Source of the DNA: Stenotrophomonas rhizophila
Lineage (GTDB): Bacteria > Pseudomonadota > Gammaproteobacteria > Xanthomonadales > Xanthomonadaceae
Direction of reading: 5' to 3'
Length of the DNA: 64,000 bases
NCBI RefSeq assembly: GCF_000661955.1
Contig: NZ_CP007597.1
Coordinates: 3,398,755-3,462,754 of the forward strand
The position numbers and the translations under genes are program-made. The notes under the pieces are model-generated. The model saw nothing but the letters and a program-made list of their open reading frames with translations, searched no databases and was not told the DNA's origin. This document shows, piece after piece, positions 6,133-21,837 of the stretch (its first letter is position 1; each line of letters begins with the position of its first letter).

Positions 6133-6151
6133 AATGCGAACACTTCTCATT
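6133..6151 (+). promoter_or_regulatory. Fur-box-like operator upstream of tonB-like gene
   Basis: The 19-bp sequence AATGCGAACACTTCTCATT resembles the Fur consensus of interleaved AATGA/TCATT inverted hexamers and ends 13 bases before the tonB-like ATG at 6165. The call rests on motif resemblance only. Confidence 0.6.
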
Positions 6152-6164
6152 TGCGCACTTGGCG

Positions 6165-6926
6165 ATGTCGTCTCCCCTCCTTCGCACGGGCCAGCCGCAC
6201 CTCGGTCCGCCGTTGTCGCCCCGCCTGCCGGCGTTCGGCGAACGCCATGCGCGTGCCCTGGCGGCCGGCATCACAGCGTTGGCCCATGTGGGCGTCTTCG
6301 TTGCCCTGCTCTGGACACAGGCCTACTCGCCCGCCAACCTGCCCCCACCGCCGGCCGAGCGCACCCAGCTGATCCTGCTGCCGCCGCGTGCACCGGAAGT
6401 GCCGCTGGAAGAGATCGCCGCGCCCACGCCCAGCACCGCCGCGTCGGTGGCCAAACAGAAGCCCGAACCGCCGCGCCCGCTGCCGCAGACACCGCCGCGC
6501 GCCGCTGCCAACTGGGTCATTCCGCCGCCTACGCCACCGCAGCCCACCCCTGACTCACCCGCGCCCCAGCAGCAGGAGGCCTCGGTTGCCGCCGCACCGC
6601 CCAGCCCGCCGCTGCCCGCCGGCCCCAGCGAAGCCACGCCCGGCCGCGACAGCTGGGAGGGACGGGTAATGGCGCGCCTGGAGCGCTTCCGGCGTTACCC
6701 CAACGCCGCCCGCGCGCGCCGCCAGGAAGGCATCGCCCAACTGCGGGTCAGCGTGGCCCGCGACGGCAGCCTGCTGGCGCTCTCGCTGGAAGCCACCTCC
6801 GGCTTCCCGCTGCTGGACCAGGCCGCGCTGGAAACCTTCCGCCGCGCCGCGCCGTTGCCCAAGGTGCCGGAAGAGCGCCCGGCACCGGTGGAGCTGTCGT
6901 TCCCGGTGGAGTTTTTCATGCGGTGA
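6165..6926 (+). CDS. TonB-like energy transducer
   Basis: A 253-residue protein with TonB architecture: a short cytoplasmic N-terminus, one membrane helix at about residues 33-50, a long proline-rich periplasmic linker (about 55-160), and a C-terminal TonB-type domain with ERFRRYPNAARARRQEGIAQLRVSVARDG split by the core of the fold. TonB proteins carry proton-motive energy from ExbB/ExbD to outer-membrane receptors; two such receptors lie a few kb downstream. No exbB or exbD is visible here. The ATG at 6165 follows a Fur-box-like site, so iron repression is likely. Confidence 0.82.
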   Translation: MSSPLLRTGQPHLGPPLSPRLPAFGERHARALAAGITALAHVGVFVALLWTQAYSPANLPPPPAERTQLILLPPRAPEVPLEEIAAPTPSTAASVAKQKPEPPRPLPQTPPRAAANWVIPPPTPPQPTPDSPAPQQQEASVAAAPPSPPLPAGPSEATPGRDSWEGRVMARLERFRRYPNAARARRQEGIAQLRVSVARDGSLLALSLEATSGFPLLDQAALETFRRAAPLPKVPEERPAPVELSFPVEFFMR

Positions 6927-8488: not shown

Positions 8489-10810
8489 ATGATCAAGAGC
8501 CGCAAGCACTCTCCCTCTTCGCGCAGCGCCGCCTGCCTGGCCACCGCCGGGCTGGTCACCGGCCTCGGCCTGGCCGCGCTGCCCGTCACAGCCCTTGCCC
8601 AGTCCAGCACCGCCACGCCGCAGACCCTGGACCAGGTGCACGTGCTCGGGGTGCGCGGCTACAAGGCCGACAAGGTCGCCTCGCCCAAGTTCACCCAGTC
8701 GCTGCAGGACACGCCGCAGACCATCCAGGTGATCACCGCCGACCTGTTCAACCAGCAGGGTGCCACCACGCTGACCGATGCGCTGCGCAACAGTCCGGGT
8801 GTGGGGACGTTCTACGTGGGCGAGAACGGCAACACCAATACCGGCGACAGCATTTTCATGCGCGGCTTCGACACCTCCAGCAGCATCTTCGTGGATGGCG
8901 TGCGCGACATCGGCTCGATCTCGCGCGATGTGTTCAATACCGAACAGGTGGAAGTGGCCAAGGGGCCGGCCGGTACCGACAACGGCCGCTCCGCCCCCAC
9001 CGGCGCGATCAATATGGTGAGCAAGCAGGCCACCCTGCATGACGCGGTGTCCGGCACCGTGTCGGCGGGTACCGACAGCCAGGCGCGCACCACCGCCGAC
9101 TGGAACCAGACCCTGGGCGCTACCAGCGCGCTGCGGCTCAATGCCATGTGGCAGGACAACGACCAGCCCGGCCGCGACCACGTCAACAACAGCCGCTGGG
9201 GCATCGCCCCGTCGCTCGCGTTCGGCCTGGGCACGGCCACGCGCTACTACCTGAACCTGCTTTACGTGGAACAGGACAACGTGCCCGACGGCGGCGTGCC
9301 CACCCTCGGCTTGCCGGGCTGGACGCCGCAGCCCACGCTGGAGCAGCTGGCCGGCCACCCGGTGGACCCGGAGAACTTCTACGGTACCCGCGCCGACCAC
9401 GACGACGTCACCGCGAAGATGGCCACGTTCCGCATCGAGCACGACGTCAACGACAACGTCCGCCTGACCAACACCGCACGTTGGGGCCGCACCGACCAGG
9501 ACTACATGCTGACCGCCTTCATGGGCACCGGCACCCGCGGTGCCAATGGCGCGGCGACCGGCAACATCCGCTACACCACGGCCGCCGACCTGGGCAGCTA
9601 CACCCTCGCGCGCAGCCTGCCGACCTTCAAGGACCAGCAGAACACCATCCTTACCGACCAGCTCAACCTGCGCGCCGACTTCACCACCGCTGCGGTCGCG
9701 CACAACCTGAGCACCGGCCTGGAGTTCACCCGCGAAGAACTGAAGAGTTTCGGGCAGGCCGCCACCGGCGGCAGCGTGTGGTCCGCGGCCAACCTGTACG
9801 CACCGGACTGGAACGCCACCGGCCTGACCTGGGCCCACAACGGCGCCGACAGTCATGGCAAGACCACGACGTCGTCGGCGTACCTGTTCGACACGCTCAC
9901 CATCGGCGAGAGCTTCCTGCTCACCGCCGGCCTGCGTGCAGACCACTACAAGACCGACTACCAGAGCGCGTCGGTCTGCGGTGGGCGCGGCCCCGCCTGT
10001 GGCAGCAATCCGGTCGGCACGGTGATCCGCAATCCGTCGCTGGCGCAGTCGGACACCCTGCTCAACTGGAAAGTCGGCGCGGTGTACAAGGTCGATGACC
10101 TGGTCAGCCTGTATGCCAACTACGCTATCTCGCAGCAGCCTCCCGGTGGCAGCAATTTCCAGCTGAGCGCTTCGGCCAGCAGCGCCGACAATCCCAGCCT
10201 GGATCCGCAGAAGGCAAAGACGTTCGAGGTGGGCACCAAGTGGAGCTTCCTGGACGACGCACTGGCCTTGAACGTGGCGCTGTTCAAGACCGAAGTCAGC
10301 AACGAGATCAACACCCAGGTGCTCGATGATGCCGGCAACCCCACCCAGACCGGCAAGAAGTCGGTTCAGGGCATCGAGGTGTCCACGGTGGGCCGCATCA
10401 CCGACAACTGGTCGGTGAGCGCCGGCTACAGCCACCTCGATACCGACGTCGAGGAAGGCGCCAACGTTGCCGCCGACGGCACCCGCAACCTGACCTACAC
10501 GCCGGGCGATACCTTCACCAGCTGGACCAGCTATACCTTCCCGTTCGGCCTGACCCTGGGCGGTGGCGCGCGGTATGCCGGCCAGATGCACCGCGGTACC
10601 GATGGCGCGGTGGGCACCCCGGCATTCACCAAGTCCTACACGGTCTACGATGCGGTGGCCTCGTACACCATCAACCCGCACCTGGTGGTGCGCTTGAACG
10701 CCTACAACCTGTTCGACAAGCAGTACGTGGCTGCGATCAACAAGAGCGGGTACCGTTACACCCCGGGCGCACCGCGCTCGTTCCTGCTCAGCGCCGACTA
10801 CCGCTTCTGA
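8489..10810 (+). CDS. TonB-dependent siderophore receptor, Fiu/PiuA-like
   Basis: A 773-residue outer-membrane receptor. A long signal peptide ends near ALAQ, followed by the TonB-box region (TLDQVHVLG), a plug domain ([32 protein letters not shown]) and a 22-strand barrel ending in the outer-membrane C-terminal signature LLSADYRF. Plug motifs such as FMRGFD and [15 protein letters not shown] match catecholate-siderophore receptors of the Fiu/PiuA group. The PiuC-type hydroxylase directly downstream is the usual neighbour of that group. The start MIKSRKHS is chosen by the signal peptide; longer in-frame extensions lack one. Probably repressed by Fur through the site at 7872. Confidence 0.92.
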
Positions 10811-10818
10811 TGCGTGGG

Positions 10819-10843
10819 CGGCGCGGGGAGGTTCCCCGCGCCG
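10819..10843 (+). terminator. Strong hairpin between receptor and hydroxylase genes
   Basis: An 11-bp perfect GC-rich stem with a three-base loop fills the gap between the receptor stop and the piuC-like start. There is no T run; it may stabilise the receptor message or partly attenuate the next gene. Confidence 0.45.
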
Positions 10844-10859
10844 CGTAGAGGATCCCGCC

Positions 10860-11546
10860 ATGCTGCTGCATGTTCCCAACGTACTTTCCGCCGATGAACT
10901 GGCCCATCTGCAGCGCGCGCTTGCGGCGGCGGACTGGGCCGATGGCCGCGAAACGGTGGGGGCACAGGGCGCGCAGGTCAAACGCAACCAGCAACTGCCC
11001 GACGCCTCGCCCCTGAAGGCCGAACTGGGGCAGGTGGTGCTGGCGGCGCTGGAGCGGCATCCGCTGTTCTTTGCCGCCGCGCTGCCGCTGCGGATCCTGC
11101 CCCCGCGCTTCAACCGCTACCAGGGCGGCGGCGAATACGGCCTGCATGTCGACGGGGCGGTGATGATCACCGGCCACGGCGAGCAGCGTGCCCACCTGCG
11201 CTCGGATGTGTCCTGCACCTTGTTCCTGAGCCCGCCGGAGGCCTATGACGGCGGCGAACTGGTGGTCAGCGACACCTATGGCGAGCACGAGGTGAAACTG
11301 CCTGCCGGCGATCTGGTGGTCTACCCGTCCAGCAGCCTGCACCGGGTCAACGCGGTGACACGCGGTGCCCGGCTTGCCTCGTTCTTCTGGGTACAGAGCA
11401 TGGTCCGCGATGACAGCGCGCGGCGCATGCTGCTGGAGATGGACAGCGCCATCGAGACGCTGCGCACCGGCGGTGCCGACGCGGCCGCCGTACTGCAGCT
11501 CACCGGCGTGTATCACAACCTGCTGCGCCGCTGGAGCGAGGTCTGA
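10860..11546 (+). CDS. PKHD-type Fe(II)/2-oxoglutarate hydroxylase, PiuC/YbiX family
   Basis: A 228-residue 2-oxoglutarate-dependent dioxygenase. The iron triad is H96-V-D98 and H161, with R171 (RGARLAS) placed to bind 2-oxoglutarate; [16 protein letters not shown] is the family signature. Members (PiuC, YbiX) sit beside Fiu/PiuA receptors and are iron-regulated; their substrate is not firmly known to me. GAGG at 10847 gives a good ribosome site for the ATG. Confidence 0.92.
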
Positions 11547-12270: not shown

Positions 12271-14703
12271 ATGGCCCAGCGCCAGCGTCGTCATACGTCC
12301 CTTTCCCGTTGTTCGCTGAGCATCGCCCTGCTCGGCGCGCTCAGTGCCCCGGCCTTCGCCAACGGTGCCGCTGCCAGCTCGCCGACCACCCTGGACAAGG
12401 TGGTGGTCACCGCCGCCGGCTTCGAGCAGAAGATCACCGACGCCCCGGCCAGCATCAGCGTGGTCAGCCGCGAAGAACTGAGCAAGCGCCCGTACACCAG
12501 CCTGGTGGATGCGCTGCGCGACGTGGAAGGCATCGACGTGGGCATGGAAACCACCGACAAGAACGGCCGCGCCACCATTTCCATGCGTGGCATGCCGTCC
12601 GAATACACCCTGGTGCTGATCGACGGCCGCCGCCAGAGCAACGTGGGCCAGCTGTACCCGAACAACTTCGGCGGCGGCCAGTTTGCCTACCTGCCGCCGC
12701 TGGATGCCATCGAGCGCATCGAAGTGGTGCGTGGCCCGATGTCCACCCTGTATGGCTCGGACGCGATGGGCGGGGTGATCAACATCATCACCCGGCGCAA
12801 CCAGGACAGCTGGCACGGCTCGGTCACCCAGGGCTTCACCGTGCAGCAGGACGACCAGTTCGGCGATGCGCGCACTACCGATGTGTACCTGACCGGCCCG
12901 TTGCTCAAGGACCGCCTGGCCCTGGCGGTGCGCGGCAGCTACTACGACGCCAAGGCGTCCAACCCGGAGTGGGATGACCTGCCGCTGCCGGACGGCACGC
13001 TGTGGGAGCGCAGCATCGGCTTCGGCGGTGGCGGCAAGGCGGTGGCCAACACCAACTGGAATACCGGCCTGCGCTTGAACTGGACGATCAACGACGACCA
13101 CGACCTGAGCCTGGACTACGACGTCTCGCGCCAGAAGTACGACAACAGCGAAGGGCAGACCGGCACCCTGGACAGCGCCGCCAGCCTGTGGCGCGTGGGC
13201 AACGCGACCATTCCCAATCCGAACGGCAGCGGCACGGTCACCCGCCGCGTGGTGCAGCCGCGCGTGGGCTACACCGCCTACCAGCGCTATGAGCGCGACC
13301 AGCTGGCGCTGAGCCACCAGGGCCGCTACAGCTTCGGTACCTGGCAGACCACGCTGACGCACACCACCAGCAACAACCTGGGCCGTTCGCTGCCGCTGAC
13401 CTTGGACGAGCGCGCGGACCTGCAGACGCTGTGGAACGATGTGTGCGCACGCACCGGCGCGGCGGCCAACTGCGCCGCAGGCCGTGGCAATGCGCTGACC
13501 GCCCTGAACGCCAGCGAGCAGGCCCGCCTGCAGGCCTTCCTGCCGCGCCCGCTGCGCACGATGGAGCTGGAAGGCTACGTGCTGGACACGATGCTCGACA
13601 TGACCTTCGGCGCGCACAAGCTGACCGTGGGTGGCCAGTACAACGACACCGACATGGTGGACGGCGTGTTCGGCATGGACGGCGCCGGCTACCGTGACAA
13701 CGTCAAGCAGCAGCACCGGATGTGGTCGGTGTTCGCCGAGGACAACTGGTCGCTGACCGACACGCTGACCGCCACGGTGGGCGTGCGCTACGACGACCAC
13801 AACATCTTCGGCAGCCACGTCAGCCCGCGCGGGTATCTGGTGTGGAACGCGAGCGACGCGTGGACGATCAAGGGCGGGGTGAGCACCGGCTACAAGACCC
13901 CGCGCCCGGACCAGCTGTTCCCGGGCGTGACCGGGTTCGGCGGCCAGGGCGTGCTGCCGCTGGTGGGTTCGCCGAACCTGCAGCCGGAAACGAGCACCAA
14001 CTATGAGGTGGCGGCGTACTACGAAGGCAGCAACTGGGGCTTCAACGTCACCGGGTTCCTCAACAAGTTCGACGACAAGATCGCCAGCGGCGGCACGTTC
14101 CCGAACTGCGAAGTGGCCCCGGCCGGCAGCGGCTACTGCGTGGACGTGGGCCCGGGCTGGGCGGCGCTGGGCTACAGCACCTTCAGCCAGAGCGTGAACA
14201 TCGACAAGGCCGAAACGCGTGGTGTCGAGGCGGCGGCATACGTGGACCTGCTGGACAGCCTGCAGCTGCGCGGCAACTACACCTACACCACGTCCGAGCA
14301 GACCAGCGGCGTGGACAAGGGCAAGCCGGTGGGTGGCACGACCACGCCGGCCCGGCACATGGCCAATGCCAGCCTGAACTGGCAGCTCAACGATGCGGTC
14401 AGTCTGTCGCTGATCGGCGAAGGCCGCTACGACCGCTACCGCGACACGCTGGTGGGCAACGTGGGCGGGGTGAGCACGTCGCAGGTGCGCTACTACGAGG
14501 ACTACACGATCTTCCACCTGGGCGGCAGCTGGAACATCAACCGCTGGCTGACGCTCAATGCACGGGTCAACAACCTGTTCGACAAGGACTTCGTGTCGCA
14601 GTCGTGCGTGTTGATCAGCGACAGCGAATACAACTGCGTGGACGACTACGCAACCAAGGACCAGCGCCGCAGCTACTGGATGTCGTTGAACGCGAAGTTC
14701 TGA
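12271..14703 (+). CDS. TonB-dependent receptor, CirA/FepA-like
   Basis: An 810-residue outer-membrane receptor: signal peptide to about residue 30 (APAFA), TonB box TLDKVVVTA, plug with TDAPASISVVSREELSKRPYTSLVDALRDVEGIDV and RGPMSTLYGSDAMGGVINIITR, then a large barrel ending in MSLNAKF. The plug is of the colicin I/enterobactin receptor type (CirA, FepA). Extracellular-loop cysteines occur near the C-terminus (SCVLISDSEYNC). It is preceded by GAGG and by a Fur-box-like site 660 bases upstream. The exact ligand is unknown. Confidence 0.92.
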   Translation: MAQRQRRHTSLSRCSLSIALLGALSAPAFANGAAASSPTTLDKVVVTAAGFEQKITDAPASISVVSREELSKRPYTSLVDALRDVEGIDVGMETTDKNGRATISMRGMPSEYTLVLIDGRRQSNVGQLYPNNFGGGQFAYLPPLDAIERIEVVRGPMSTLYGSDAMGGVINIITRRNQDSWHGSVTQGFTVQQDDQFGDARTTDVYLTGPLLKDRLALAVRGSYYDAKASNPEWDDLPLPDGTLWERSIGFGGGGKAVANTNWNTGLRLNWTINDDHDLSLDYDVSRQKYDNSEGQTGTLDSAASLWRVGNATIPNPNGSGTVTRRVVQPRVGYTAYQRYERDQLALSHQGRYSFGTWQTTLTHTTSNNLGRSLPLTLDERADLQTLWNDVCARTGAAANCAAGRGNALTALNASEQARLQAFLPRPLRTMELEGYVLDTMLDMTFGAHKLTVGGQYNDTDMVDGVFGMDGAGYRDNVKQQHRMWSVFAEDNWSLTDTLTATVGVRYDDHNIFGSHVSPRGYLVWNASDAWTIKGGVSTGYKTPRPDQLFPGVTGFGGQGVLPLVGSPNLQPETSTNYEVAAYYEGSNWGFNVTGFLNKFDDKIASGGTFPNCEVAPAGSGYCVDVGPGWAALGYSTFSQSVNIDKAETRGVEAAAYVDLLDSLQLRGNYTYTTSEQTSGVDKGKPVGGTTTPARHMANASLNWQLNDAVSLSLIGEGRYDRYRDTLVGNVGGVSTSQVRYYEDYTIFHLGGSWNINRWLTLNARVNNLFDKDFVSQSCVLISDSEYNCVDDYATKDQRRSYWMSLNAKF

Positions 14704-15073: not shown

Positions 15074-15140
15074 CCTCCACCGCATGGATGCGGTGGCGGA
15101 GCCTTATCTGATCGGAATCTGGCAGTTTAGGTGTCGAGAG

Positions 15141-15205
15141 CCGGCGTGGGCCGCCGTGTGAGCCTGGATCTCGACGATCGCCGTGTAGCTTGGCGCCCAC
15201 GCCGG
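15141..15205 (+). ncRNA. Candidate IS110 bridge-RNA hairpin
   Basis: CCGGCGTGGGC (15141-15151) pairs perfectly with GCCCACGCCGG (15195-15205) around a 43-base internal loop, in the 230-base non-coding stretch directly upstream of the IS110-family transposase. IS110-group elements are known to encode a structured bridge RNA in their non-coding end that specifies donor and target. Position and structure fit; no pairing to a target or donor was shown, so this is a candidate only. Confidence 0.4.
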
Positions 15206-15311
15206 AATCTCCCTTGATCCGCCCGAACAGTTGCTGGAGCTGTCACTCGAAGCGATAAGACTGGGCAAGCGGGGGAGCTCTCGACCCTTCCAGACTATAC
15301 GGAGTCGGGCG

Positions 15312-16226
15312 ATGAACGGGATCGGGATTGATGTAAGCAAGCGCCGGCTGGATGTTGGAACCTCCGACGGCCAAACCCTGCAGGTCAGCAATGACCCCTC
15401 CGGTTTCGCTGAATTGGACCTCTGGCTGAGGCAGCGCCCGAGTAACCAGATCGTGCTGGAGGCCACCGGTGGCTACGAACAGCCTGTGCTGGATTTTCTG
15501 CACAAGGCCGGTCATCCGGTGGTTCGGGCCAATGCCTTGCGGGCGCGGAAGCTTGCTCAGGGGCTGGGCCAGAGGGCCAAGACCGACCGCTTGGATGCCT
15601 ATGCATTGGCACAGATGGCCACGCTGGTGAAGCTGCCGGCCTATCAGCCGTTGGAGGCTTGGCAGCAGAAACTGCGGGAGTTTGTGCGGGCACGTCGACA
15701 GATGATCCAGGCCTTGGCCGTCGCGCGACAGCAGCAGGAAATGGTGGGTGATCGTGAACTGCGCCGGCTTTTGCAGGCCAACATCACCCACCTGAAGACA
15801 CTGGTCAAACGCCTGGGAAAGCAGATTGCCGAGCAGCTCGCTCAACAGCCCCAGCTCACGGTTCTGAAGTCGATGAAGGGCGTCGGGCCGGTGGTACAGG
15901 CGGTGCTGGCCAGCTACCTGCCTGAGCTGGGCCATATCAGTGGAAAGGCCATCGCCAGCCTGGTGGGCGTGGCGCCGATGTCCCACGACAGCGGGACGAT
16001 GCGTGGAAAACGAAGCATCCACGGCGGTCGAGCCGAGATCCGTCAGGTGCTTTACATGGCCGGCATGTCAGCCCTGCAGCACGAACCGCGCATACGGGAC
16101 TTTTACCGGTCGCTACGGGCCCGCGGCAAGGAGGCCAAAGTAGCCATCGTGGCGGTAATGCGAAAGATGCTGGTGATCCTCAACGCCCGCGTGCGCGACG
16201 CTCAAAGCGGACCGATCCCCGCCTGA
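15312..16226 (+). CDS. IS110-family transposase
   Basis: A 304-residue IS110-type recombinase. The N-terminal RuvC-like DEDD residues are visible as D7 (GIDVSK), E50 (LEATGGYE), and D92/D95 (KTDRLDA). The C-terminal transposase_20 domain contains the helix-hairpin-helix MKGVGPVV and the segment [17 protein letters not shown], where S227 is the likely nucleophile. The gene is intact and full length for the family. Codon choice is less GC-biased than that of the neighbours, as expected for a mobile gene. The ATG at 15312 is chosen because GIGIDVSK is the family's N-terminus. Confidence 0.95.
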
Positions 16227-16252
16227 AGCGCGCCCGGGCACATCTCCAACGG

Positions 16253-16319
16253 CTGCCGGCCAGCGGCCGGCACTACCGTGCCCGTCTGCTGGAGGGGCCG
16301 AAGCCTCCTCCAGCAACAC
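16253..16319. repeat. REP-like palindrome and GCTGGAG hairpin after the transposase
   Basis: CTGCCGGCCAGCGGCCGGCACTAC is a reverse-oriented GTAG-class REP (16253-16276). Just after it GCTGGAGG and CCTCCAGC-like arms (about 16289-16314) form another hairpin that could terminate transposase transcription. Confidence 0.6.
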
Positions 16320-16347
16320 AGTTGCTACAAGGACGTACTTGCGGCGT

Positions 16348-16372
16348 GTCCCGTGAACCCATACCCGCCGTC
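16348..16372 (-). repeat. Right arm of the 25-bp inverted repeat
   Basis: Exact reverse complement of 15049-15073, 1.3 kb away. Neither arm extends further: the next bases on both sides mismatch. Confidence 0.7.
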
Positions 16373-16438
16373 ACGCCCCGGCAGACCACAGTGCCGCTTT
16401 GCTTGAAAGCTTTGAGCTTTGGCCAAAACCACCCACAA

Positions 16439-16457
16439 ATTGCGAACCATTCTCATC
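16439..16457 (+). promoter_or_regulatory. Fur-box-like operator of the PepSY/flavin operon
   Basis: ATTGCGAACCATTCTCATC resembles the Fur consensus and lies 38 bases before the proposed start of the PepSY gene, pointing to iron repression of the five-gene unit that follows. Confidence 0.6.
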
Positions 16458-16495
16458 AATGGTGTAATTCGCCATTCGATCAAAGTCCACCCCCA

Positions 16496-17131
16496 GTGCC
16501 CACTCCAACCTCCAGCGTGCAGCAGCAACAAAGTCGCGGCTTCTGGCTGCGCACCCTGCACCAGTGGCACTGGATCAGCTCGGCCGTCTGCCTCATCGGC
16601 ATGCTCCTGTTTGCCGCCACCGGCATCACCCTCAACCACGCCGCCAGGATCGAAGCCACCCCGCAGGTCGTCAACCGCCAGCTGGACCTGCCCGCCGACC
16701 TGCTCGCCACGCTCGGCGACCGCGCCGACGGCAACGCGCCCCTGCCCCGTGCCACCGCCCGCTGGCTCGATGCCCAACTGCATATCGCCATCGGCCGCCG
16801 CCCCGCCGAATGGTCCGACGGCGAAATCTACCTCTCCATGCCCAGCCCCGGCGGTGACGCCTGGCTCAGCATCGACCGCGACAGCGGCGCCGTCGAATAC
16901 GAAGCCACCACCCGCGGCTGGGTCTCCTACTTCAACGACCTCCACAAAGGCCGCAACGCCGGACCCGCCTGGGGCTGGTTCCTCGACGTGTTCGCCGCCG
17001 CCTGCCTGGTGTTCTGCATCACCGGCCTGTTCCTGCTCCACCTGCATGCCCGCCAGCGGCGCATGACCTGGCCCCTGGTCGGCCTCGGCCTGATGATCCC
17101 CCTGCTCATCGCCCTCATCCTCATCCACTGA
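16496..17131 (+). CDS. PepSY-associated membrane protein
   Basis: About 211 residues with the PepSY-TM layout: a first helix after the signature [12 protein letters not shown] (helix about residues 26-46), a periplasmic PepSY-like domain ([31 protein letters not shown]), then two more helices with [22 protein letters not shown] in front. Histidines near the membrane (HQWHW, LNH, DLHKG) resemble sites that bind haem or metal in this family. The start is uncertain: GTG at 16496 or 16517, both downstream of the Fur-box-like site; the longer frame to 16322 would run through that site. First gene of a likely iron-regulated unit with DUF2271, DUF4198, ApbE and a flavoreductase. Confidence 0.8.
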
Positions 17132-17152
17132 TCGCCCCCACGGAGCCGCACC

Positions 17153-17671
17153 ATGCGCGTCACCCTGACCATCGCCCTGAGCGGCCTGCTCGCCACCAGC
17201 CCCGCCTACGCCGCCACCCTCGACATCAACCTCGAAGTGCCCAAGCTCACCGTCGCCGAATATCACCGCCCCTACGTCGCGGTGTGGCTGGAAGGCGCCG
17301 ACCAGACAGTGGCCGCCAACCTCTCGGTCTGGTACCAGCAGACCGGCAACAGCGAAGGCCATGGCACCAAGTGGCTGCCCGACCTGCGCCAGTGGTGGCG
17401 CAAGAGCGGCCGCACCCTGGACGTCCCCGTCGACGGCGTCACCGGCCCCACCCGCCCCGCCGGCAAGCAGGCCCTGTCGTTCAACGACAAGCAGCCCGCG
17501 CTGAAGGCCCTGGCCCCCGGCAATTACACCCTCGTGGTCGAAGCCGTGCGCGAAGTCGGTGGCCGCGAACTGCTCAAAATCCCCTTCACCTGGCCGGTCA
17601 CCACCGCCCAGAACGGCAAGGCGCAGGGCGCCACCGAACTCGGCCTGGTCACCCTCACCGCCAAACCGTGA
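17153..17671 (+). CDS. DUF2271 periplasmic protein
   Basis: A 172-residue protein with a clear signal peptide (cleavage after AYA, residue 20). The mature part has the DUF2271 pattern: [14 protein letters not shown] early, [11 protein letters not shown] in the middle, and [18 protein letters not shown] near the end, predicted beta-rich. Function unknown. Across xanthomonads such genes sit with PepSY, DUF4198 and ApbE genes, as here; it starts 21 bases after the PepSY stop. Confidence 0.85.
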
Positions 17672-17795
17672 CCTTCCGCCCGTCTTCGCCGGCGGGCACA
17701 CCACACCCCCGCACCGCCGCGTAGCATCGGCGGTCGGACCGTTCCCCGTTCACCGGGCATGTCCCTCGTACCTGCCCCCTTACATGGAGTTGTTG

Positions 17796-18602
17796 ATGAA
17801 GCGCTCGCTCGTCCTAGCCGCCGCCCTGGCCGCCGCACTTCCGTTCTCCGCCCTGGCCCACAAAGCCTGGCTGCAGCCCTCGCAGACCGTCGTCGCCGGC
17901 GAGAAGCCGTGGATCACCGTCGATGCGGCCGTGTCCAACGACCTGTTCTACTTCAACCACGTGCCGCTGCGCCTGGACAACCTGATCATCACCGCTCCGG
18001 ACGGCACCCTCGTGCAGCCGCAGAACGCAGCCACCGGCAAGTTCCGCAGCGTGTTCGATGTCGAGCTCACCCAGCAGGGCACCTACCGCCTGGCCACCGT
18101 CAACAACGGCCTGTCGGCCAGCTGGGAAGAAGACGGCAAGCCCAAGCGCTGGCGCGGTACCCCCGCCACCTTCGCCACCGAAGTGCCGAAGAAGGCCAAG
18201 AAGCTGCAGGTAGCGCAGTCGGTCGGCCGGGTGGAAACCTTCGTCACCAACGGCACCCCCAACGACACCGCGCTGAAGCCGACCAAGCAGGGCATCGAAA
18301 TGGTCGCGCTGGGTCATCCCAACGACCTGGTCGCCGGCGAAGCCGCCCGCTTCCGCGTGCTGGTCGACGGCAAGCCGCGCGCCGGCCTGGCCTTCGAGAT
18401 CACCCGCGGCGGTACGCGCTACCGCAACGCCCAGGAAGAGATCAAGGTCACCACCGACAAGAAGGGCGAGTTCAGCGTCACCTGGCCCGAGGCCGGCATG
18501 TACTGGCTGGAAACCGGCAGCGAAGACAAGAAGACCTCGCTCAAGCAGGCCAAGACCCGCCGCCTGAGCTATGTGGCTACCCTCGAAGTGCTGCCGCAGT
18601 AA
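17796..18602 (+). CDS. DUF4198 periplasmic protein
   Basis: A 268-residue exported protein of the DUF4198 family, which includes predicted periplasmic metal-binding components linked to nickel/cobalt and iron transport. The signal peptide ends in SALA, so the mature protein should begin with histidine (H22, HKAWLQPS), a feature that in such proteins can create an N-terminal metal site. GGAG at 17786-17789 with six-base spacing selects the ATG at 17796 over the one at 17784. A GC hairpin follows the stop. Confidence 0.85.
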
Positions 18603-18638
18603 CCCGCGCAGTTCCGCTTCAGGCCGCACCTGCGGCAC

Positions 18639-18665
18639 GCCCCCTCCCCGGCGGAGGGGGCCTTT
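18639..18665 (+). terminator. Hairpin between DUF4198 and apbE genes
   Basis: GCCCCCTCC (18639-18647) pairs with GGAGGGGGC (18653-18661), followed by CTTT. It could end or attenuate transcription inside the operon. Confidence 0.5.
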
Positions 18666-18714
18666 GACCAGGATCGATGATGGCGCGGGCCGCACGCCCC
18701 CCCTGCCCCAGCCC

Positions 18715-19695
18715 ATGAATGACGTACCCCTCGACATCGCCAGCCTCGGTGGCCACACCATGGGCACCACTTGGCAGGTAAAGCTGGTGGTCGCGCGCAC
18801 GCGTGACCTGCACCCGCTGCATGCCGGCATCCAGGCCCAGCTCGACGCCATCGTGGCGCAGATGAGCACCTGGGAAGCCAACAGTGACATCGCCCGTTTC
18901 AACCGTGCCGCGCCCGGCAGCGCACAGCGCGTGCCCGACCTGTTCGCACGCGTGGTGGACGCCGCCGTGGACATCGCCCGCCGCAGCGCGGGTGCCTTCG
19001 ACCCCACCGTGGGGCCGCTGGTCGCGCTGTGGGGATTTGGCGCGCACGCCCACGCACAACGCATTCCCGACCCCGCCACGCTGGCCGCCACCCGCGCCCG
19101 CTGCGGCTGGCAGCGCCTGCACTGGGCCGACCAGACCCTGCAGCAACCCGGTGGCGTGGAACTGGATCTGTCCGCCATTGCCAAAGGCTTCGGCGTGGAC
19201 CAGGTCAGCGCCTGGCTGTGCCAGCAGGGCGTGCACGCCGCGCTGGTGGAAGTGGGCGGTGAACTGCACGGCTACGGCCGCAAGCCCGATGGCCAGCCAT
19301 GGCGCGTACTGGTCGAAGCCGGTCCCGAGGAAGAGGCCAGCAGCGCGCTGCCACCGCGGGTGCTCGCACTGGATGACCTGGCCGTGGCCACCTCCGGCGA
19401 CCGCTGGCACCACTTCGAACAGGACGGCGCGCAGTTCAGCCACACCCTGGACCCGCGCACCGGCGCGCCGGTCACGCGTGCCGCCGCGGCCGTCACCGTG
19501 GCCGCACGCGATGCGATGCACGCCGATGGCTGGGCGACCGCCCTGACCGTGATGGGCGTTACGCAGGGCCTGGCCTTCGCCCGCGAGCACGCGCTGGCCG
19601 CACGTTTTGTCAGCCGCGGCGCGCACGGCATCGAAGAACACATGAGCCCGGCCTTCGCGCAGCTGCTGGATGCACCACAGGCGCCGCGCGCATGA
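18715..19695 (+). CDS. FAD:protein FMN transferase, ApbE-like
   Basis: A 326-residue ApbE-family flavinyltransferase, which attaches FMN covalently to a Thr/Ser of a target protein using FAD and Mg2+. Motifs: GGHTMGTTWQV at the start, FDPTVGPLVALWGFG, GVELDLSAIAKGFGVDQVS (flavin site), VEVGGELHGYG, and near the end FSHTLDPRTGAPV with DAMHADGWATALTVMG (metal ligands). Unusually, no signal peptide or lipobox is visible at this start or in the in-frame upstream extension, whereas most ApbE act in the periplasm. The gene overlaps the flavoreductase by ATGA. Confidence 0.9.
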   Translation: MNDVPLDIASLGGHTMGTTWQVKLVVARTRDLHPLHAGIQAQLDAIVAQMSTWEANSDIARFNRAAPGSAQRVPDLFARVVDAAVDIARRSAGAFDPTVGPLVALWGFGAHAHAQRIPDPATLAATRARCGWQRLHWADQTLQQPGGVELDLSAIAKGFGVDQVSAWLCQQGVHAALVEVGGELHGYGRKPDGQPWRVLVEAGPEEEASSALPPRVLALDDLAVATSGDRWHHFEQDGAQFSHTLDPRTGAPVTRAAAAVTVAARDAMHADGWATALTVMGVTQGLAFAREHALAARFVSRGAHGIEEHMSPAFAQLLDAPQAPRA

Positions 19696-21299
19696 GCCGT
19701 CCGTCGCGCGCCACGGTCGGCAACGTGCTGGTGATCGCCCTGCTGGTGGTGCTGGCGTGGCTGCTGCTGCGCCTGCACCTGCAGGAACCGTGGTGGCAGG
19801 GCGCACCGCTGGCATCGCACTGGCGCATCGCCGCCGCCAGCGTGTTCGGCTATGCCGCGCTCTGCGCCCTGATCTGGTGGCGGGGCCGGCCGCGCGACGA
19901 TGCCGCGGTGGCAGGCGGGCAGGCACCGCTGCTGCTGGTCTGGGCCAGCCAGACCGGCTTTGCCCAGCAACTGTGCGAACGCAGCGCCGAGGCCCTGCGC
20001 GCGGCGGGCATACCGGTGCGGTTGCGCGGCTTGCACCAGGTGGACGCCAGCACGCTGCAGCAGGCCACGCAGGTCCTGTTCATCGCCAGCACCACCGGCG
20101 AGGGCGATGCGCCCGACCACGCGCTACCGTTCCTGCGCACGGTGATGCCACAGGCGCTGGCACTGCCGCAGCTGCAGTATGGCGTGCTGGCACTGGGCGA
20201 CCGCAGCTACGGGCACTTCTGCGCGTTCGGCCACCAGCTGGATGCGTGGTTGCGCCAGCACGGCGCGCACCCGTTGTTCGACACCGTGGAAGTGGACAAC
20301 GCCGACCCGGCTGCGCTGCGCCACTGGCAGCAGCTGCTGGGCCAGCTCGGCGGCACCGCCACCGACCTGCCCGACTGGACCCCGGCCGATTACCTGCACT
20401 GGCAGCTGCGCAGCCGCACGCTGGAAAACCCGGGCAGCCCCGGTGCCGGCACCTGGCGCGTATCGCTGGTGCCCGCCGACGGCGTCCTGCCCGCGTGGCA
20501 GGCCGGCGACGTGGTGGAAATCGGCCCGCGGCATGCGCCCGCCGCGGTGGATGCGTGGCTGGCCGCCACCGCGCTGGACGGCACGCAGCAGATCGACGGC
20601 GACACCCTGCACACGCACTTGTCGCGCGCCCATCTGCCCGATGCCGATGAAACACCGGACAACGATGCGGCGGCATTGGTGGCGTCATTGCGCCCCTTGC
20701 CGCACCGCGAATACTCCATCGCCAGCATGCCCGGCGAAGGCCACGTGCAGCTGCTGCTGCGCCGGCAACTGCGTCCGGACGGCACGCCCGGTCTGGGCAG
20801 CGGCTGGTTGTGCGACCACGCCGCGCTGGGCGGCCGCATCGACCTGCGTTTCCGCAGCAACCCGAATTTCCATGCCCCGGCGCCAGACGCCCCGCTGATC
20901 CTGATCGGCAATGGCACCGGCATCGCCGGCCTGCGCGCGCACCTGCGTGCCCGCATCGACGCCGGCGCGCGGCGCACCTGGCTGCTGTTCGGCGAGCGCA
21001 CGCAGGCGCACGATTTCTACTTTGGCGACGAACTGACCGCCTGGCAGCAGGCCGGCTGGATCGAACACCTGGATACGGTGTTCAGCCGCGACGGCGGCGA
21101 GCACCGCTACGTGCAGGATCGCCTGCAGGCGCACATCGACCGACTGTGGGAGTGGTCGCGCGAAGGCGCCACGATCCTGGTCTGCGGCAGCCTGCAGGGC
21201 ATGGCCCCGGCCGTGGACGCAGTGATCGAACGCGCGTTGGGCCGCGAAGGCAAGGAAGCGCTGATCGTGGCCGGCCGCTACCGGCGCGACGTGTATTGA
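19692..21299 (+). CDS. Membrane-anchored diflavin reductase (sulfite reductase flavoprotein-like)
   Basis: A 535-residue protein: two N-terminal membrane helices (about 10-28 and 44-62), a flavodoxin domain from residue 79 (SQTGF phosphate loop, TTGEGD at 134-139), then an FAD/NADPH reductase module (REYSIAS near 339, GNGTGIAGLR near 405, VCGSLQGM near 496) ending in RYRRDVY as in cytochrome P450 and sulfite reductases. It should move electrons from NADPH through FAD and FMN to a membrane or periplasmic acceptor. In related organisms the PepSY membrane part is fused to such a reductase; here a PepSY gene sits in the same unit. ATGA overlap with apbE. Confidence 0.88.
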   Translation: MSRPSRATVGNVLVIALLVVLAWLLLRLHLQEPWWQGAPLASHWRIAAASVFGYAALCALIWWRGRPRDDAAVAGGQAPLLLVWASQTGFAQQLCERSAEALRAAGIPVRLRGLHQVDASTLQQATQVLFIASTTGEGDAPDHALPFLRTVMPQALALPQLQYGVLALGDRSYGHFCAFGHQLDAWLRQHGAHPLFDTVEVDNADPAALRHWQQLLGQLGGTATDLPDWTPADYLHWQLRSRTLENPGSPGAGTWRVSLVPADGVLPAWQAGDVVEIGPRHAPAAVDAWLAATALDGTQQIDGDTLHTHLSRAHLPDADETPDNDAAALVASLRPLPHREYSIASMPGEGHVQLLLRRQLRPDGTPGLGSGWLCDHAALGGRIDLRFRSNPNFHAPAPDAPLILIGNGTGIAGLRAHLRARIDAGARRTWLLFGERTQAHDFYFGDELTAWQQAGWIEHLDTVFSRDGGEHRYVQDRLQAHIDRLWEWSREGATILVCGSLQGMAPAVDAVIERALGREGKEALIVAGRYRRDVY

Positions 21300-21329
21300 G
21301 TGCACGGACGCGCCGCGCGCCGGTGACGT

Positions 21330-21407
21330 TGGTGCCCAAACGACCGCCGAAGACCTTTCGCACCACCACCGCTTCCCAATCGACGCTGATGACCGTTGGC
21401 ACACACC
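21330..21407. repeat. Degenerate 40-46-bp tandem units, first block
   Basis: Units of the form CCAA-CGAC-GCCGA-GACC-TT-GCAC-ACC-CCG recur, for example at about 21338 and 21375, leading into the first 145-bp element. Similar units fill the gap between elements 1 and 2 (about 21577-21692) and between 2 and 3 (about 21860-21898). The region 21300-22038 has no convincing gene. Confidence 0.6.
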
Positions 21408-21552
21408 GGTAGGGTCGGTTCCCAAACGACTGCCGATGACGGTGATCGACGCGGCGAACGCATGACCCGCAACGGGGCCGCCTTCGACACAGGTCATGCC
21501 ACCACCGAACGCTGCACAGGCTATCGGCAGTCGATCGGGATGCGACCCTACC
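21408..21552 (+). repeat. 145-bp palindromic-ended element, copy 1
   Basis: Starts GGTAGGGTCGG and ends GCGACCCTACC, so its termini are inverted repeats. Near-identical copies of exactly the same length lie at 21693 and 21899. Size and ends suggest a miniature non-autonomous element. Confidence 0.8.
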
Positions 21553-21692
21553 AGGGCAGATCACGCCGCTACCGCCCCCAATAAACGGCCGATGATCTCT
21601 CGCGCCAACGCCGGTTTCCAAGCGACGGCCGATGACCTCTCGCGCGACCGCCGGCTCCCAATCAACCGCCGATGACCGTTGGCACAACCACC

Positions 21693-21837
21693 GGTAGGGT
21701 CGGTTCCCAAACGACGGCCCATAACGGTGATCGCCGCGACGAACGCATGACCCGCAACGGAGCCGCCTTCGACACATGTCATGCCACCACCGAACGCTGC
21801 ACGGGCTATCGGCAGTCGATCGGGATGCGACCCTACC
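21693..21837 (+). repeat. 145-bp palindromic-ended element, copy 2
   Basis: Same 145-bp unit as copy 1 with a handful of substitutions (for example ACGACGGCCCATAACGG for ACGACTGCCGATGACGG). Confidence 0.8.

Follow-up and report, generated by a model that had tools for sequence, protein, structure and literature searches.

A described Fur-preceded flavinylation operon in Stenotrophomonas rhizophila, with an ApbE that lacks a signal peptide

Results and discussion

A five-gene operon of a recognised type

The operon described here occupies the plus strand at positions 16496-21299 of a 64,000-nucleotide stretch of Stenotrophomonas rhizophila DNA (contig NZ_CP007597.1, positions 3,398,755 to 3,462,754), referred to below as the window. 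It is an ordinary operon, already described elsewhere, in a new strain, plus one under-noticed oddity: the flavinyltransferase ApbE that it encodes has no leader. Its products probably form a ferric-reductase module that is repressed by Fur and located in the inner membrane and periplasm. Pfam searches confirmed five co-directional genes of the families named by a first-pass annotation of this DNA, and the Fur-like site ahead of them was also recovered:

16441..16455, + strand: Fur-like 7-1-7 site TGCGAACCATTCTCA (12 of 14 consensus positions)
16496..17131, + strand: PepSY_TM_like_2 membrane protein (PF16357, 7e-83; PF03929, 1e-10)
17153..17671, + strand: DUF2271 protein with a Sec-type leader (by eye) and the flavin-attachment motif DGVTGPT (PF10029, 1.7e-49)
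17796..18602, + strand: DUF4198 protein with a leader ending between A and H (Pfam, 9e-59)
18715..19695, + strand: ApbE flavinyltransferase without signal peptide (PF02424, 1.3e-80; leader scan)
19692..21299, + strand: membrane-anchored diflavin reductase using reduced nicotinamide adenine dinucleotide phosphate, NADPH (Flavodoxin_1, 8e-25; NAD_binding_1, 5e-11)

The intergenic distances are 21, 124, 112 and -4 bases. The last of these is the ATGA overlap between the ApbE and reductase genes that had been noted before. Of 72 related loci with both genes, 69 show the same arrangement of an ATG across the ApbE stop codon. Searches of the host genome (one contig, 4.65 Mb) returned a single copy each of ApbE, DUF2271, the PF16357 protein and DUF4198, one FeoB_C match and no FMN_bind protein.

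The gene order is highly conserved. The first-pass annotation had proposed looking for it beside TonB-dependent receptors. Among 75 loci in named genomes, picked by DUF2271 similarity, 72 carry all five genes in the same order on one strand, and a receptor similar to the one at 12271-14703 lies directly upstream of the PepSY gene in 44 of the 75. Two of the exceptions are interrupted by contig ends (L046, L059) and the third, from Cellvibrio (L105), is without DUF4198 and ApbE. Across the phylum, DUF2271 scored above the cut-off in 65 of 398 genomes. These gave 68 matches, from which 60 regions were fetched after seven members of this family and a second copy had been set aside. The complete set is present in 16 of the 60, and most others hold partial or fused forms: seven without a recognised reductase, two without DUF4198 in place, eight without ApbE, eight with only PepSY-DUF2271-DUF4198, two with only DUF2271-DUF4198, eleven in which a reductase adjoins ApbE and DUF2271 is too divergent for the model used, and four with ApbE and DUF2271 in a single frame. 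The remaining two show little or none of it.

The first-pass annotation knew of no described system with these five parts. The literature contradicts this (PMC3751524, PMC8238504, PMC12004947, PMC6240677). Caulobacter crescentus has an identically ordered set of these five genes, CC3059-CC3063, annotated as transporter, DUF2271, DUF4198, ApbE and sulfite reductase flavoprotein. They were shown to be Fur-bound and iron-regulated in 2013; the study reports Fur gel shifts and lacZ fusions, and one of its tables gives values from 12 to 51 in two columns that we read as low iron and fur mutant (PMC3751524). Transposon mutants of the same genes (CCNA_03155-03159) had reduced fitness in ethylenediaminetetraacetic acid (EDTA) in a 2025 study (PMC12004947). 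For S. maltophilia K279a, a table with the Fur regulon predicted by RegPrecise includes the pepSY gene and its neighbour (PMC6240677); further related literature exists (PMC11334425).

The class as such was defined in 2021 by Méheust et al., who counted 3220 PepSY-like flavinylation clusters, 2833 of them with DUF2271 and 1500 with DUF4198. They found one DUF2271 protein to be flavinylated by its ApbE and proposed iron reduction for the clusters (PMC8238504). Their definition asks for a PF03929 or PF16357 protein that has ApbE, FMN-bind, DUF3570 or DUF2271 no more than five genes away, and for a signal peptide or lipidation site on at least one of these (PMC8238504). The operon in the window falls within it by its Pfam matches and the DUF2271 leader, the latter recognised by eye and not by SignalP. 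A supposed new system thus becomes a recognised one with a defined model, and effort can shift to the electron path and the metal.

ApbE without a leader

ApbE flavinylates its substrates in the periplasm in the textbook reaction. In the ApbE of the window, the start codon and the MGT motif are only 15 residues apart and no hydrophobic stretch is present. As a crude substitute for SignalP, we considered every in-frame ATG, GTG or TTG located 18-80 codons ahead of the MGT motif in related loci and looked for a hydrophobic 9-mer behind it. A leader was flagged in none of 72 named loci (which include near-copies and hence are not independent), in 6 of 36 phylum regions and in 23 of 29 loci of a class-wide control sample, the 29 being those returned of 52 matches. 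L189, one of the leader-negative members of the class sample, is itself linked to DUF2271. Among the six flagged phylum proteins, a lipobox occurs in L127 alone; the signals of L117, L118, L150, L156 and L158 were weak, and these five were judged leaderless by eye. A wrongly placed start that masks a leader was rejected as an explanation, since 0 of the 72 alternative-start sets passed the scan.

A quick tree of 82 ApbEs (the one from the window, 16 of the 72 named, 36 from the phylum and 29 from the class) placed the 54 DUF2271-linked proteins on one side of a branch with a Shimodaira-Hasegawa-like approximate likelihood ratio support (SH-aLRT) of 95. Leader state changes twice on this tree if the five weakly flagged proteins are taken to be leaderless and two unflagged controls, judged by eye, to have a leader; three controls whose start could not be read were omitted. 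L127 (genome G588) is the only clear lipoprotein ApbE in the DUF2271-linked clade, having either regained or retained its leader, and so offers a natural contrast.

ApbE is the sole copy in 21 of 25 genomes with an ApbE in such a cluster, and four have a second one; by a strict count, the scan left the ApbE unflagged in 17 of the 21 single-copy genomes. A different ApbE acting outside the cell is thereby excluded for the present genome, with its single ApbE, and for 21 of the 25 sampled. Genomes whose cluster is without ApbE encode one elsewhere in 18 of 18 cases (28 matches in total), and a leader was found in 19 of the 20 proteins read, the remaining one being leader-like by eye.

Because the operon's ApbE is leaderless and the only one of the cell, while DUF2271 has a leader, we suggest that flavin mononucleotide (FMN) is added to DUF2271 before or during export. 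A seven-residue motif is sufficient for ApbE (PMC12052999), which makes an unfolded substrate thinkable. The odds appear evenly balanced that the operon's ApbE represents a leaderless cytosolic clade dedicated to DUF2271, flavinylating it before export, and that bacteria use either a dedicated enzyme inside the cell or a shared one outside. It weighs against this that an Amantichitinum ApbE construct was termed 'signal peptide-truncated' (PMC8238504), so that a leaderless ApbE is not the rule in all DUF2271 clusters. A literature search for cytosolic ApbE or flavinylation before export, covering few subscription journals, found only a 2025 ApbE review, with cytosolic ApbEs that have internal targets. 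The leader mismatch of ApbE and the N-terminal histidine of DUF4198 (below) seem to have been less noted so far. The former raises the question of whether covalent FMN is carried through the export machinery or is added to a chain that is still inside.

The predicted flavin site of DUF2271

In the published flavinylation motif, D-x-x-[S/T]-G-A-[S/T], it is the last residue that carries FMN (PMC12052999). A [S/T]GA[S/T] site is typical of PepSY-like flavinylation clusters, though their definition does not require it. In the DUF2271 protein of the window it reads DGVTGPT, proline replacing alanine. Proline is in fact the common residue, occupying this position in 91 of 106 aligned rows (81 by string match and ten string misses read as Pro) against alanine in 15. 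The attachment threonine is kept in 106 of 106 rows; among 47 phylum rows, the motif ends with Thr in 46 and with Ser in the other. Since a Klebsiella target retains about half of its flavinylation when this alanine is changed to valine (PMC12052999), it is plausible by analogy that the proline is compatible with flavinylation.

A C-terminal GATELG stretch was rejected as flavin site: its sequence is variable, it has disappeared from Janthinobacterium, Massilia and Cellvibrio, and the upstream Dxx[S/T]G[A/P]T is conserved. Twin-arginine export of DUF2271, which would explain cytosolic loading, was discarded too, with one string match (L117, the rest of the motif missing) in 43 phylum regions, in a few of which the start is poorly placed (e.g. 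L130, L150, L159). A profile search of DUF2271 against solved structures gave only chance-looking matches (best E 0.005, a designed protein). In six loci (L133, L134, L138, L140, L155, L159), Ser stands for the motif Gly (e.g. DAVTSAT), and ApbE and the reductase are absent nearby.

DUF4198 as a candidate metal binder

Judging from the leader, whose cleavage site is predicted, mature DUF4198 would begin with histidine. A His directly follows this site in 73 of 74 named rows and in 42 of 42 PepSY-linked phylum rows that reach it (four further rows are second fragments). The structural model of DUF4198 has the beta-sandwich fold of Zcp (9mhj) and IsDUF4198 (9gcb). IsDUF4198 binds Ni via its N-terminal His with a dissociation constant (Kd) of 18 nM, and Cu, Zn and Co are the metals with which Zcp has been solved. 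The DUF4198 gene, whose induction is the strongest within the Caulobacter operon (PMC3751524), thus gains a candidate function as an N-terminal-His metal binder.

The PepSY protein and the diflavin reductase

The PepSY protein was modelled with three long helices and a single PepSY-like domain, at a predicted local distance difference test score (pLDDT) of 83. An alignment of 22 sequences showed His 25, 48, 150 and 211 to be invariant and His 184 nearly so, which is consistent with haem. A fold search with the model gave no match at E 0.001, none of the solved structures matching well, and a sequence profile of the protein likewise found no solved structure.

The reductase begins with two hydrophobic stretches (by eye), followed by FMN and NADPH domains and a CysJ-like C-terminus. 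Its profile matched the CysJ structure 6efv best among solved structures (E 1.3e-81); CysJ family models matched below their cut-offs.

The Fur-like site and the start of the operon

Sites were scored against a 7-1-7 Fur consensus. None of 100 first-order random resamplings of the region did as well as the 12/14 at 16441-16455. In 50 of 76 loci, the 220 bases ahead of PepSY contain a site that scores 11/14 or better, a few of these being equalled by 1-3 of 100 resamplings. The same scan ahead of the other four operon genes gave 0/76, 0/74, 0/73 and 0/74. The 26 loci without a site ahead of PepSY are 23 from Xanthomonas, two from Luteimonas and one from Cellvibrio. The best sites in Xanthomonas are weaker (10-11 of 14) and about 4 kb upstream, ahead of three longer frames; in L078, the one domain-checked locus, these are a receptor, a PKHD hydroxylase and a Sel1 protein. 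A genome-wide search with a pattern modelled on 16441-16455 itself returned 16 matches at 12 distinct places, versus 0 for the reversed pattern.

The likeliest start of the PepSY gene is GTG 16496, which aligns with an ATG in Xanthomonas. No sigma-70-type promoter was found by a scan of 16226-16600 or 17100-21700; reading by eye, we noticed TTGCGA-N17-TGTAAT around the Fur-like site.

Function of the operon

Several lines of evidence argue for a ferric-reductase module: the domain content, the conserved order, the Fur-like site and the receptor, PKHD hydroxylase and TonB genes nearby; the Caulobacter counterpart, which is Fur-bound and iron-responsive and whose mutants have an EDTA defect; the flavinylation of one DUF2271 protein by its ApbE; and a host with one ApbE, one DUF2271, one FeoB and no FMN_bind. 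The electron path, the haem, iron as the substrate, loading before export and the metal of DUF4198 are the parts of the following model that we infer. At low iron, the anchored diflavin reductase would draw electrons from NADPH through flavin adenine dinucleotide and then FMN. The electrons would go on to the three-helix PepSY protein, where haem is probably bound by the conserved histidines, and from there to the FMN covalently bound to the Thr of DGVTGPT in exported DUF2271. This flavoprotein may then reduce ferric chelates delivered by the neighbouring TonB-dependent receptors, and the resulting Fe(II) would enter via FeoB. DUF4198 could hold periplasmic metal through its N-terminal His, and ApbE would load the FMN, probably in the cytosol before or during export.

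The earlier proposal that electrons move from NADPH to a flavin in the periplasm, under Fur control and with a role in reducing iron, thus survives as the best-supported reading, its functional side being predicted, and loses the word 'undescribed'. The two exported proteins are exported as it had said; 'of unknown function' no longer fits them, given that a DUF2271 protein is an ApbE substrate and that a DUF4198 relative binds Ni via its N-terminal His.

The metal handled by the module might instead be copper or nickel, for example; Fur control would then be part of a general metal stress response, and DUF4198 would carry that metal. The metals of IsDUF4198 and Zcp speak for this, as does the Bordetella PepSY_TM protein CrpH, which supports a haem-copper oxidoreductase function (PMC13038864). 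We regard it as unlikely in view of the Fur-like site, the siderophore-type receptors alongside and the iron/Fur regulation in Caulobacter. Even less credit is due to the flavin chain as a general periplasmic redox supply for oxidised proteins, quinones or flavins, its iron regulation serving to spare haem or iron and not to gain iron. MsrQ-like flavinylation systems are known, and the replacement of iron-containing carriers by flavins in iron-poor settings is a point raised by Méheust et al. (PMC8238504); however, the EDTA fitness defect of the Caulobacter mutants (PMC12004947) and the receptor neighbourhood here argue against it. That the reductase is uncoupled from PepSY and DUF2271 and reduces free flavin or a cytosolic partner, with PepSY fed by quinol, is very improbable: PepSY, DUF2271 and ApbE do occur with no recognised reductase close by in seven phylum regions and the electron donor of FoxB is called unknown (PMC13038864), but a reductase gene ends the operon in 72 of 75 loci, its ATG overlap with the ApbE stop is widely kept, and 1077 PepSY-like genes are reported with an NAD-binding domain (PMC8238504). 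Reduction of iron under Fur control remains the reading that we prefer.

Neighbouring genes

Further features upstream of the operon are as follows:

8489..10810, + strand: TonB-dependent receptor adjoining piuC, PiuA/CciT-like by position, from which the name is taken (Pfam)
10860..11546, + strand: PKHD-type hydroxylase, PiuC (PF18331, PF13640)
12271..14703, + strand: TonB-dependent receptor, CirA/FepA-like (PF00593/PF07715; NCBIfam matches below cut-off)
15105..16324, + strand: IS110-family insertion between receptor and operon (NF033542; comparison with L033 and L035)

The IS110-family element is not part of the system. By tblastn, no such element was found at the corresponding place in the 75 named loci, L033 and L035 being continuous across the point, and its insertion leaves the Fur-like site intact. 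L033, titled Bacillus subtilis SK7B5, is apparent Stenotrophomonas DNA with a 98% identical DUF2271 and the same neighbourhood; the assembly is probably mislabelled or contaminated.

The receptor and hydroxylase at 8489-11546 resemble the PiuA-PiuC or CciT-CciO pair, and the Caulobacter CciT-CciO genes are also Fur targets (PMC12004947). A second Fur-like site (6135-6149, 11/14) lies just before a TonB gene (6165-6926), which is downstream of a sufBCDS-like run (names given by eye).

Comparison with known systems

The PepSY-like clusters of Méheust et al. share with the operon a PF16357/PF03929 protein together with ApbE, DUF2271 and DUF4198. The operon differs in the proline of the flavin motif, in its leaderless ApbE and in a separate CysJ-like reductase, which is not named in the available part of that paper. 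The PepSY_TM reductases FoxB and HiuB, for which reduction of ferric siderophores has been shown or is thought to occur, hiuABC being Fur-regulated (PMC13001220, PMC13038864), resemble the PepSY protein in their link to receptors and in conserved histidines. However, they have at least four helices, and FoxB has two PepSY domains (PMC13038864), whereas our model has three helices and one domain.

With the sulfite reductase flavoprotein CysJ, the reductase has in common the FMN and NADPH domains and a C-terminal RYxRDVY. Unlike CysJ, it is membrane-anchored, and the operon encodes no sulfite reductase partner. The position of His18, the second ligand in IsDUF4198, would by plain count of residues correspond to Trp39 of the precursor here, where His55 and His174 are the conserved histidines instead. 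The canonical periplasmic lipoprotein ApbE is of the same family and has its MGT region near the start, but the operon's ApbE has neither signal peptide nor lipobox and belongs to a separate clade.

Caulobacter belongs to another class than the host, the Alphaproteobacteria. The published descriptions of CC3059-CC3063 (CCNA_03155-03159) in C. crescentus show all five families and their order on one strand to be shared with the operon. They also report Fur control, which the Fur-like site predicts for the window, and a GTG start for the first gene, as is likeliest here.

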